From: Candidatus Allofournierella merdipullorum
GTDB taxonomy: Bacteria; Bacillota; Clostridia; Oscillospirales; Ruminococcaceae
NCBI GenBank assembly: GCA_019116345.1
Contig: DXBV01000118.1
Coordinates: forward strand, 1-64,000
Direction: 5' to 3'
DNA length: 64,000 nt
Shown here: positions 4,180-9,975 of the stretch, one piece after another
How the letters are laid out: each line of letters starts with the position of its first letter
Numbering within the stretch: the stretch's first letter is position 1
Notes under the pieces: generated by a model
Seen by the model: the letters and a program-made list of their open reading frames with translations, nothing else
Told to the model about the DNA's origin: nothing
The model's database searches: none
Translations under genes and position numbers: made by a program

Positions 4180-5388
4180 TTATTTTTTCTGCGGGCCCTG
4201 AAGCAGTTTCTGATAGGTCAGGTCCATGCCCAGCGCGCCCAGCGGCGCGGTGAGCAGGATGCCCACCACCGCCACCGACAGCACCAACTGCCCGCAGGCA
4301 AGGCCCGCCGCCAGCGGCACCGAGCCGATGGCCGCCTGCACGGTGGCTTTGGGCAGATAGGCGATGACGCAGAACAGCCGCTCCTTGCGGGAAAGGGCGG
4401 TGCCCGCCAGGCAGAGGGTGACGCCCACCGCCCGGAACACCAGCGCCAGCGCGATCATCGCGATCACGCCCAGGCCCGCGCCCAGGGTATAGCGCACGTC
4501 CACCGCCGCGCCCACCAGCACGAAGAGGATGACCTCCGCCGCCAGCCACAGCTTGCCGAACTTCTGGCTCAGGCGCATCGAGACACCCGGCGCGCACCGT
4601 AGCTTGAGCACACAGGCCATACTGACCACCGCAAGCAGGCCGGAGACGGGCAGCGTGCCCTCCAGCCAGTCCTCCACCGCCATCAGCAGGAAGGACACCC
4701 CCAGCACCACGATCACCTTCATGCTGTTGCGCATCATATGGGCGTGGGCATAGGCGGTCTCAAAGAAGGCGCTGAGCACCCAGCCCGCCGCCGCGCCCAG
4801 GGCCACGCCGCACACGATGGACACCGGAATGGACGCGAACGCCGCCAGGTCCGCCCCCCCCCGCCCCTGGGCCATGCCCAGGAAGGCGGAAAAGAGCACG
4901 ATGACAAAGATGTCGTCGCAGGAGGCGCCGGCCATCACCATCTGGGGGATGCCCTGTTTTGTGCCCCAGCCCTCCTCCATCAGGCGCACCATGCGGGGCA
5001 CCACCACCGCCGGCGAAACCGCCGCCATCACCGCGCCCATCACCGCCGCTTCGGCCAGAGAAAGGCCCAGCAGCACCGGAGCCAGCAGCACATAGGCCGC
5101 GATTTCAAAGCTGGCGGGCACAAAGCTCATCATCACCGCCGGGCGGCCCACCTTTTTCAGGTCCGCCAGATTCAGCGAAAGGCCCGCCTTGAGCAGGATG
5201 ATGATAAGAGCCATCTGCCGCAGATCGGCGCTGATGGAGAGGATGGAATCATCCAGCACATTCAGCGCGCAAGGCCCCAGCACAACGCCCACCGCCAGCA
5301 TGCCGATGATGCGGGGCAGGTGCAGCTGCTGGCAGATGGCCGCCGCCGCGAGGCCCGCCAGAAACACGAACGCAAGACTTGTTAACAT
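4180..5388 (-). CDS. Cation:proton antiporter (CPA family)
   Basis: MLTSLAFVFLAGLAAAAICQQLHLPRIIGMLAVGVVLGP..., 12-TM-like hydrophobicity; GGAGGAA SD before ATG 5388. Confidence 0.88.
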   Translation of the reverse strand: MLTSLAFVFLAGLAAAAICQQLHLPRIIGMLAVGVVLGPCALNVLDDSILSISADLRQMALIIILLKAGLSLNLADLKKVGRPAVMMSFVPASFEIAAYVLLAPVLLGLSLAEAAVMGAVMAAVSPAVVVPRMVRLMEEGWGTKQGIPQMVMAGASCDDIFVIVLFSAFLGMAQGRGGADLAAFASIPVSIVCGVALGAAAGWVLSAFFETAYAHAHMMRNSMKVIVVLGVSFLLMAVEDWLEGTLPVSGLLAVVSMACVLKLRCAPGVSMRLSQKFGKLWLAAEVILFVLVGAAVDVRYTLGAGLGVIAMIALALVFRAVGVTLCLAGTALSRKERLFCVIAYLPKATVQAAIGSVPLAAGLACGQLVLSVAVVGILLTAPLGALGMDLTYQKLLQGPQKK

Positions 5389-5571
5389 ACCAGTTCCTCC
5401 TTCGGGACGCAAAAAAAGCCGACAGCTTCCGCGACCCAATCGATCACAGAAGTCATCAGCTTTTGAAAAAGCGGTTTAGGTTTCCCAAGGGAGAACTTCA
5501 TTCCCTGCCGGTCATTATCCACCGGCGCCGGCGGTTTGTAAAGGATGGATTTTTTGTGCCGGCCGACGCGG

Positions 5572-7259: not shown

Positions 7260-8546
7260 TTATTCCGCGGGGATGAACTGGTAGGTCTGGACCGTGGTGT
7301 CGGTGGGATAGAAGTAGAGCCAGTCGCCCGGTTTCATCACACCGCAGGTCAGGGAGAAGGCTTCGCCCGACTCGATCTCGGACTCAAACTCCGCGATCCG
7401 CCGGCTGTCCTGATCGAAGGCCAGCACAGGGGTGATGGAAACATGGCGTTCCTCGTCGATGTACGGCTCGTTGGCTTTCAGCGAGGCAAGGCCGGCGTCG
7501 GTCAAAGGGTTCATCTCGCTGTCGTAGTGGTGAAGGGCTCTTGTGCCGTTTTCCTCCACATAGATGCTGCCGTCGGCCATCACATCGGAGATGTAGCGCA
7601 GGCTGTCGGGAACGGCCACCGAGCCGTTGGTGTTCAGAATGCCAAAGCCGCCCTTATCCAGAAAGACCGGGCGGGAACCGGCGGTGATGCCCACGATCTT
7701 GCGGCCGTCGGTGCCCAGCTTTGCGCCGGTGCGGTCATAAGGCACGCCGCTCACCACAACACCCTCTTCCCAGGTGGTGAAATCAGGCAGGGGGCAGTTG
7801 CCGAAGCTGTAAGGCACGTCCTCCAGCACCACCGAACCGTCGGCGTTGTAGAGCACCGCGATGCCGCCGTCGGACTCACTCACAAAGTAGTAGCCGTTGC
7901 GCGGGTCGCACCAGCAGTTCTTGCCGCTGACGATCACCGAGCCGTCGGGCTTAAGCACATTATACTCGGTGCCCGCGTCGCTCTCACGGGCGCCCCAGCC
8001 CAGCTGGCCCATGGGCGAAATGCGGACGTAGGCAGGCTGCACCAGCACATTGCCCGAAAGGTCACAGTAGCCCCACAGGCCGTCCTTGTAGAAAGGCACG
8101 ATGCCGCTTTCGGAACAGGAGTAAAGATCGGTGAGTTTTTCAACGTTGTCCTGCAGGGAAAAACCATCCGAGGTCATGCGCTCCACATCGATGTTGAAGA
8201 TGTCCTCCCGGGAAATGGAGTACAGCGCGGTATACTGGCCGTCCTCGCTCAAGTAGCCGGCCTCACCATTCGCCCACACCCAGGCATAGCCGTTTTTGAA
8301 CATGGTGAAGAGTTCATAATCGCCCAGATTGATCTCTTTTTCGGTCAGCTGCAGGCTGCCCTCGGCCACCGGCGCGGTGGTGGGTTCCGGCGTGGGCGTG
8401 GGCTCCGCAGGCTGGCTGGACACCGAGGACGGCGCTTCCACCGCCGAACCGGGGTGAGACACCGTCTCTCCGCCGCAGGCGGTCAGCACCGTGCAGGCAA
8501 GGGCGAGCGCCGCCGCGCGGGCCGCAAAGGTTCGATTCAATTTCAT
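7260..8546 (-). CDS. WG-repeat-containing lipoprotein
   Basis: Lipobox LTACGG; repeats GYAWVWANGEAGYLSEDGQ, GLWGYCDLSGNVLVQPAY. Confidence 0.8.
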   Translation of the reverse strand: MKLNRTFAARAAALALACTVLTACGGETVSHPGSAVEAPSSVSSQPAEPTPTPEPTTAPVAEGSLQLTEKEINLGDYELFTMFKNGYAWVWANGEAGYLSEDGQYTALYSISREDIFNIDVERMTSDGFSLQDNVEKLTDLYSCSESGIVPFYKDGLWGYCDLSGNVLVQPAYVRISPMGQLGWGARESDAGTEYNVLKPDGSVIVSGKNCWCDPRNGYYFVSESDGGIAVLYNADGSVVLEDVPYSFGNCPLPDFTTWEEGVVVSGVPYDRTGAKLGTDGRKIVGITAGSRPVFLDKGGFGILNTNGSVAVPDSLRYISDVMADGSIYVEENGTRALHHYDSEMNPLTDAGLASLKANEPYIDEERHVSITPVLAFDQDSRRIAEFESEIESGEAFSLTCGVMKPGDWLYFYPTDTTVQTYQFIPAE

Positions 8547-8673: not shown

Positions 8674-8702
8674 TTGACAAAATCCTTCCGGGATGGTAGG
8701 GT
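8674..8702 (+). promoter_or_regulatory. Promoter of the cysteine leader/cysK transcript
   Basis: TTGACA-N17-TAGGGT. Confidence 0.65.
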
Positions 8703-8721
8703 ATGCGACAAGGTGATTTTT

Positions 8722-8778
8722 ATGAATCTTGTCTATTTGATTTCTGTGAAAGAAAATATCTGTTGTTGTCGCTGTTGA
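8722..8778 (+). CDS. Putative cysteine-rich leader peptide MNLVYLISVKENICCCRC
   Basis: 18-codon ORF with AAGGTG SD, ends TGT TGT TGT CGC TGT TGA, just downstream of a promoter and upstream of a terminator and cysK-like gene. Confidence 0.65.
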   Translation: MNLVYLISVKENICCCRC

Positions 8779-8932
8779 GGGACGGCTGCTTTTCCGCGTT
8801 GGGCCAACGGGTCCGAGGGCGCGGCGGGCAGACGGCCCTGTTGGTGCTGTCTGCTGCCCCCTTCGACTGCGGCTCCCGGAAAGCGGGGCGAAGCCTTTGT
8901 GCTTTGCCTTTCAGGCTGACAGAGTCCTTTTG

Positions 8933-8968
8933 AAGGCTGTGTGCGCAGGCACGCAGCCTTTTTGTTTT
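8933..8968 (+). terminator. Attenuator-like intrinsic terminator upstream of cysK-like gene
   Basis: AAGGCTGTGTG-CGCAGG-CACGCAGCCTT (11 bp, one G-T) then TTTGTTTT. Confidence 0.8.
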
Positions 8969-9009
8969 GCCCGCCGCACACATGAACACAACACAAAAGG
9001 AGAACTGTT

Positions 9010-9975
9010 ATGAAGTCTTACGAAACTCTTTCCGGCAACACCCCGCTCATCCGCATCGACTACCGTCTGGACGGCCGCCCCGGCGCGGTGTACGCCAAGC
9101 TGGAAAGCTACAATCTCTCCGGCAGCATCAAGGACCGGGTGGCTGCCCGCATCATCTCCCGCGCCGAGGAAAGCGGCAAGCTGACTCCGGGCCAGTCCAT
9201 CGTGGAGGTGACCAGCGGCAACACCGGCATCGCCTTTGCCGCGCTGGGCGCGCTCACCGGCCATCCGGTACACATCTTCATGCCCGAGCGCATGAGCCGG
9301 GAGCGGCGGCAGCTGCTGGAGTTATACGGCGCGCAGCTGCACCTGGTGAGCGACGCCGAGGGCGGCTTTGAGGGTGCGCTGCGCCTTGCCCGCCTGGCCG
9401 CCGGGGAACTGGGGGCCTTTCAGCCGCTGCAGTTCGACAACGAGGAGAATGTGCTGGCCCACTACCACACCACCGGCGCGGAGCTTCTGGCGGCGCTGCC
9501 GGATGTGAAGGCTTTTGCGGCCGGAGTCGGCACCGGCGGCACGCTGATGGGCGTTGCCCGCCGTCTGAAGCCCCAGGGCGCTCTGATCGCCGCGCTGGAG
9601 CCCGACGCCGCGCCCCTTCTGAGCGGCGGCAACGTCACCGGCCCCCACAAGATCGAGGGCATCGGCGACGACTTTATCCCCTCCATCGTGGACCGCAGTC
9701 TCATCGACACGGTGCTGCAGGTAAACGACGACGACGCGGTGCTCATGGCCGCGCGGCTGGCCAAGGAACTGGGCCTTGGGGTGGGCATCTCCTCGGGCGC
9801 GAACCTGCTGGGCGCCATTGAGCTGACCCGGCGCGGCGCCGGCCCTGCGGCCACCGTCTTTGCCGACGACAACAAAAAATACCTCACCACCGCCCTGGCC
9901 CATCCGGCCCCCGCGCGGGAGGGATTTCTCTCCCCCCGGGTGGAGCTGCTGGGCTTGCAACGGGTGTCCGCGTGA
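9010..9975 (+). CDS. cysK: Cysteine synthase-family PLP enzyme
   Basis: SYETLSGNTPLIRIDYRL, KLESYNLSGSIKDRVA (PLP lysine), TSGNTG; AAAGGAGAA SD. Confidence 0.9.
   Translation: MKSYETLSGNTPLIRIDYRLDGRPGAVYAKLESYNLSGSIKDRVAARIISRAEESGKLTPGQSIVEVTSGNTGIAFAALGALTGHPVHIFMPERMSRERRQLLELYGAQLHLVSDAEGGFEGALRLARLAAGELGAFQPLQFDNEENVLAHYHTTGAELLAALPDVKAFAAGVGTGGTLMGVARRLKPQGALIAALEPDAAPLLSGGNVTGPHKIEGIGDDFIPSIVDRSLIDTVLQVNDDDAVLMAARLAKELGLGVGISSGANLLGAIELTRRGAGPAATVFADDNKKYLTTALAHPAPAREGFLSPRVELLGLQRVSA

Follow-up and report, generated by a model that had tools for sequence, protein, structure and literature searches.

A short cysteine-rich open reading frame (ORF), a series of segments that can pair in alternative ways, and an intrinsic terminator precede a cysK-like gene of Candidatus Allofournierella merdipullorum. 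The locus lies in a 64 kb stretch of this genome (GCA_019116345.1, contig DXBV01000118.1, positions 1 to 64,000), referred to here as the window, and we discuss how its leader may sense cysteine by ribosome-mediated transcription attenuation. An initial annotation had proposed a promoter, a Shine-Dalgarno sequence, a leader ORF, a hairpin, a terminator and a CysK-like ORF, all of which were found at the coordinates it gave:

8674-8702, plus strand: promoter, read from the sequence; -35 box TTGACA (8674-8679), 17-nt spacer, -10 box TAGGGT (8697-8702)
8710-8715, plus strand: ribosome-binding site AAGGTG of the leader ORF; AAGGTGAT kept in 5/5 congeners
8722-8778, plus strand: leader peptide MNLVYLISVKENICCCRC and stop codon; conserved across 5 congeners and two further genera, the C-terminus being most constrained
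8761-8775, plus strand: control codons TGT TGT TGT CGC TGT (Cys Cys Cys Arg Cys), from the sequence
8779-8789, plus strand: segment 1, GGGACGGCTGC, directly 3′ of the leader stop; partner, segment 2
8794-8824, plus strand: hairpin nested between the arms of the 1:2 stem, completing the stem-loop; from the minimum-free-energy fold
8828-8838, plus strand: segment 2, GCAGACGGCCC; partner, segment 1 or 3
8844-8854, plus strand: segment 3, GTGCTGTCTGC; partner, segment 2 (anti-antiterminator) or 4 (antiterminator)
8945-8954, plus strand: segment 4, GCAGGCACGC, comprising the terminator loop and the beginning of the terminator 3′ arm
Plus strand: segment 5, the remainder of the terminator 3′ arm; partner, segment 4
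8932-8968, plus strand: intrinsic terminator GAAGGCTGTGTGCGCAGGCACGCAGCCTTT with T-run; stem-loop 8932-8961 of 13 pairs, T-run to 8968
9010-9975, plus strand: CysK-like pyridoxal-phosphate enzyme of 321 aa, matching PF00291 and TIGR01136

A terminator between the promoter and the cysK-like gene is as expected of a ribosome-mediated transcription attenuator. It does not belong to the gene upstream of the promoter (7260-8546), since that gene runs on the opposite strand. The leader promoters of four congeners combine TTGACA with a TATGGT, TATAGT or TAAAGT box at a spacing of 17-18 nt, so that the -35 box and the spacing are conserved and the -10 boxes are better than that of the window.

The leader ORF is conserved and more than a chance feature. 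A DNA search recovered it in all five genomes examined of the window's genus (formerly Candidatus Fournierella, now Allofournierella, Oscillospiraceae), and it is present in two further genera of the family. The peptides within the genus are MNLVYLISVKENICCCRC, MDLVYLVSVKENICCCRC, MNIVYLVSVKENICCCRC, MSLVYLLSIKENICCCRC and, in the most diverged species, MKKFSDKIKTNNICCCRC, and those of the other two genera, MNSVYLLSKKQNICRCRC and (M)KKNWIVKKQNTCCCC, precede orthologues with 78% and 68% identity. Across the three genera the C-terminus is fixed as NICCCRC, NICRCRC or NTCCCC while the N-terminus drifts. The window leader is the sole ATG ORF of 8-45 codons with at least four Cys codons among its last six in the 64 kb, both strands included. 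The recurrence of CCC-type ORFs before cysK relatives, which the annotation had put forward as a check, was also seen: they lie upstream of 13 of the 76 CysK-relative loci with enough upstream sequence (relatives drawn from 85,462 species), vs. 0.08 expected from Markov-shuffled sequence. Diverged Clostridia have Cys-rich leaders as well, namely ...FETCCCMTRGRL (locus L065), MMNFEVCFCCYTQGRP (L066) and a low-GC set of the type MILINIISNCCCMN. In a search for further GC-rich members, the covariance model R2 run over 398 genomes of the family returned only the seven known ones at E < 1e-20; its remaining matches had E ≥ 5e-4, and the best of these (L195) is without such a leader.

Two observations on individual loci may be added. 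The orthologue with 68% identity (L045, genome G078) is apparently frameshifted in its assembly, residues 148-314 matching one frame and the start another. At L045, L065 and L066 the leader start codon comes so soon after a -10-like box (about 6 nt, or slightly more) that a ribosome-binding site would hardly fit in, if at all; like mycobacterial ones, these leaders may be leaderless.

Nine GC-rich leaders, with segments aligned by hand, were compared for pairing. The 3:4 helix is paired in 63/63 cells, 2:3 in 62/63 and 1:2 in 82/98, each with two compensated pairs, and the terminator (4:5) is paired in 89/90 cells with three. Compensation in 3:4 is seen as UGUCUGC with GCAGGCA in the window, UGUCUGC with GCAGACA in genome G003, UGCCUGC with GCAGGCA in genome G134 and UGCCUGU with ACAGGCA in G078. 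A hairpin comparable to 8794-8824 is present in 7/7 GC-rich leaders. The hairpin GCAGAC/GTCTGC (8828-8854), which the annotation had listed, is no accessory but takes the role of the anti-antiterminator (2:3).

The antiterminator originally proposed fared less well. AGCCTTT (8892-8898) is indeed complementary to GAAGGCT (8932-8938), and an ordinary cysteine attenuator could be built from this pair with no relay. The AGCCTTT sequence, however, occurs only in the window genome; none of the six relatives has it, in contrast to segments 1-4, which are conserved and show compensation. The pairing was rejected, and we hold a simple attenuator of this kind to be very improbable. A pairing noticed by eye, between GGCTG after the leader stop and CAGCC of the terminator, was also discarded, because neither G003 nor G078 has the GGCTG. 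As the antiterminator, UGUCUGC (8848-8854) with GCAGGCA (8945-8951) has better support. The core of the cysteine attenuator idea, a Cys-rich leader and a terminator before cysK, is supported by conservation, compensation and relatives with other specificities; its antiterminator is not.

The arrangement that we favor, with a probability of about 0.8, is a five-segment ribosome-mediated transcription attenuator that would sense cysteine, in the form of charged tRNA-Cys, and control cysK. When cysteine is short, the ribosome would stall at the Cys codons of the leader and leave segment 1 free; 1:2 would then form, releasing segment 3 to pair with segment 4, so that the terminator would be blocked and cysK transcribed. 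When cysteine is ample, the ribosome would reach the stop codon and mask segment 1, in which case 2:3 would form, segment 4 would build the terminator with segment 5, and transcription would stop. Conservation of the leader, the segments and the terminator, with compensation, is directly visible in the sequences; we infer leader translation, stalling and the direction of the response. The gap of about 155 nt between leader and terminator, which the annotation had read as a possible sign of non-classical coupling, would be explained by the relay pairing that spans it; that reading was half right in that an extra pairing step bridges the gap.

The low-GC relatives provide a broader view of the same design, which recurs in about 50 of their leaders. 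Their covariance model was built from eight leaders; besides the OFF pairings, its one helix joined the leader coding region to the stretch downstream of segment 3. It matched 2/388 genomes across the class and 33/391 in the order of one of those two, for a total of 46 places. In the alignment fitted to the OFF structure (56 rows, two of them spurious reverse-strand matches), the OFF pairings are 93% paired with 22/34 compensated. The 1:2 and 3:4 helices, which were not in the model, are 87% paired and 12 of their 20 pairs have changed on both sides. Sliding the partners lowers the pairing to 25-52%, and none of 500 shuffles, which ignore relatedness, reached the observed covariation score. 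The mutually exclusive antiterminator (3:4) is thus backed by covariation in the GC-rich and the low-GC leaders alike. A further feature of the low-GC leaders is the pairing of the coding region with the stretch after segment 3 (e.g., L082, 2287-2299), where 13/13 pairs are compensated; this pairing would favor termination when the leader is not translated.

Named from NCBIfam matches of representatives, the genes that follow the 46 places are cysK (9), cysS (17), cysE (5), ilvB (8), an argB-type gene whose N-terminus carries an additional part (2), radical SAM genes (2), hisS (1) and an amino-acid ABC substrate-binding protein (1), with one left without assignment. All 31 leaders of the cysteine genes (cysK, cysS and cysE) have at least two Cys codons at or near the end (NCCCC, NCYCR, NNCCPIS and similar), and all eight before ilvB are rich in Val/Leu (LKLVGLLLI, VLVGLLR). 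The hisS gene is preceded by a frame with LHHHC, the ABC binding protein by LHHHRRSL and one argB-type gene by IIRRRRH; these single His and Arg cases are weak on their own. A clear leader was not found at the other argB-type locus (L186). The strongest case for the ribosome as the sensor is that the codons change along with the pathway.

The chassis is found at L142-L187 in low-GC Clostridia, with several copies per genome (e.g., G583, G603, and G605). The GC-rich and low-GC leaders share their layout and their position before the same gene family, and have similar motifs (GYAGRC, GYCTRC and CTRTGTG...CACAYAG). Segment 4 stands in a different terminator register in the two groups, and the low-GC model gave no match to L065 or L066. 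Common descent of the two groups is likely. We also lean, with less assurance than for the cysK switch itself, toward the wider view that some gut Clostridia use one relay chassis as a general amino-acid sensor, in which the control codons have been exchanged (Cys, Val/Leu, His, and Arg) and the hairpins kept, filling in these lineages part of the role that falls to T-boxes elsewhere; the Allofournierella cysK switch would then be a diverged member.

Does the geometry allow a ribosome to work the switch? A footprint of about 12 nt downstream of the A-site codon was assumed, and folding was done under that mask. In 13/13 leaders examined, including L065 and L066, whose ORF continues through segment 1, that segment lies 15-20 nt downstream of the first Cys codon. 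Given the assumed mask and this distance, segment 1 would be exposed when the ribosome is at the first Cys codon and covered when it is at the stop. In transcripts ending before segment 3, the probability of 1:2 with the ribosome at the first Cys codon is 0.91-0.99 in 7/7 GC-rich leaders; with the ribosome at the stop it is 0.00, except for 0.2 in G003. The values for the window sequence are 0.98 vs. 0.00. L065 and L098 switch completely at equilibrium, the terminator having a probability of 0.00-0.02 in the stalled state vs. 0.93-0.94 at the stop. The switch is partial in L066, L082, L131, L076, and G078, mainly in transcripts ending at segment 4.

Several points weigh against the five-segment attenuator. 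The full leader of the five Allofournierella (window included) and of G134 equilibrates to 2:3 and the terminator in both ribosome states, and their ON state would therefore need kinetic persistence of 1:2; by this modeling, the dependence of the window's genus on a kinetic 1:2 is the main weakness. The 1:2 helix has two internal, almost constant mismatches. The window 3:4 taken alone does not clearly outdo shuffled segments, 18% of which are as good, so that its support is comparative. The GC-rich leaders number only 7 to 9, five from one genus, and their segments were hand-aligned. The -10 hexamer of the window is weak (3/6), and the promoter scan omits this promoter.

The failure of the equilibrium fold of the window to hold 1:2 against 2:3 also favors a variant in which only 2:3, 3:4, and the terminator matter, 1:2 being a pause or coupling hairpin and segment 3 being freed by the ribosome in some other way. 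Against this variant, 1:2 and 2:3 both draw on segment 2, and 1:2 shows compensation in GC-rich and low-GC leaders, and the 15-20 nt from the first Cys codon suits masking of 1:2 by the ribosome. We regard the variant as unlikely, although less so than the other alternatives.

That the leader acts on cysK mRNA translation or stability, or on Rho access, with hairpins of secondary importance, has been considered for actinobacterial polycysteine small ORFs. In the present case every leader keeps a strong terminator whose loop and stem covary with upstream segments, and the cysK ribosome-binding site is outside the predicted pairings, which makes such a mode of action improbable here. Least probable of all is a metabolite-binding riboswitch or a T-box, with the Cys-rich ORF incidental. 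T-boxes are common in the source genome (8 matches elsewhere), and the annotation was right to name one as an alternative to be excluded. None lies on this contig, and at the site the covariance models of the T-box (RF00230), the his leader (RF00514), and other Rfam leaders gave no match; no Rfam hit there exceeds its gathering score, those at a relaxed threshold being at chance level. The Rfam leader families were not found on any CysK-relative locus checked either. Moreover, the leader amino acids track the downstream pathway in the relatives, which a ligand-binding RNA would not explain.

The five-segment attenuator has clear affinities to known systems. The enteric trp, his, and leu attenuators have a leader with runs of pathway codons, exclusive hairpins, and an intrinsic terminator that is read through on starvation, and the his leader also relies on a chain of alternative pairings. 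The present leader resembles them in its codon runs, mutually exclusive hairpins, and terminator, here judged from sequence. It differs in having five segments, in that the leader-adjacent segment must be free for readthrough, and in its lineage, its amino acid, and the want of an Rfam match (RF00514 for his).

The uORFC-8-2 motif before cysS in Rhodobacterales is also predicted to be a ribosome-mediated attenuator, and it combines tandem Cys codons with a terminator (Brewer, 2021; PMC8632094). It belongs to Alphaproteobacteria, concerns cysS only and has two prominent stems, the first of which contains the Cys codons, with no relay described (PMC8632094). The window leader is laid out differently: its Cys codons (8761-8775) precede the first stem, which starts at 8779. 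Cys-rich leader peptides are also found in the actinobacteria Mycobacterium, Propionibacterium, and Bifidobacterium (Seliverstov, 2005, PMC1262725; Canestrari, 2020, as cited in PMC9094748). Like the window leader, these short upstream ORFs accompany sulfur-metabolism genes and have their Cys codons in runs close to the stop, but they have no conserved terminator (PMC1262725) and are leaderless in mycobacteria. In Firmicutes, His leader-peptide attenuators have been predicted in Bacilli, Peptostreptococcaceae, and Erysipelotrichales (Naville, 2010, PMC2965389; BMC Genomics, 2022, PMC9413887); the mechanism is thus known in the phylum, and these predictions concern His genes only. Our literature search turned up neither a cysK attenuator nor a general one of this kind in Clostridia, an absence that is not proven since subscription papers and supplements lay largely outside the search. 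Within a phylum where ribosome-mediated attenuation is known, the relay before cysK seems a new and well-supported form of it.

The controlled gene itself deserves comment. The product of 9010-9975 matches PF00291 (PALP family, E 4.8e-61) and TIGR01136 (cysKM, E 1.3e-86), yet below the curated cut-off of the latter, and is near the cysK/cysM models. Its best solved relative is 5b53, Fusobacterium Fn1055, which has been investigated as an enzyme that degrades cysteine and produces H2S. At the position where 5b53 has D and 5b55 has N, the window protein has D. A biosynthetic role of the CysK-like enzyme would be in keeping with attenuation by cysteine. CysK relatives with 54-56% identity occur in Methanobrevibacter (L067-L075 and others), which suggests transfer between gut archaea and Clostridia; the Cys leader was not found at these Methanobrevibacter loci. 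Elsewhere in the window, a fluoride riboswitch (RF01734, 44.6 bits; 5440-5514, minus strand) lies directly 5′ of a minus-strand ORF (4180-5439) that by eye resembles a cation/proton antiporter.

Gut Clostridia are better known for T-boxes, S-boxes, and repressors. If the five-segment attenuator is real, it would give them a concrete, testable cysteine sensor. The regulatory logic predicts that the CysK-like enzyme synthesizes cysteine here, despite its cysteine-degrading Fn1055 relative. In the low-GC relatives, one hairpin chassis serves at least two clear, and probably four, amino-acid specificities, so that the evolution of attenuator specificity can be tested directly by exchanging codons.
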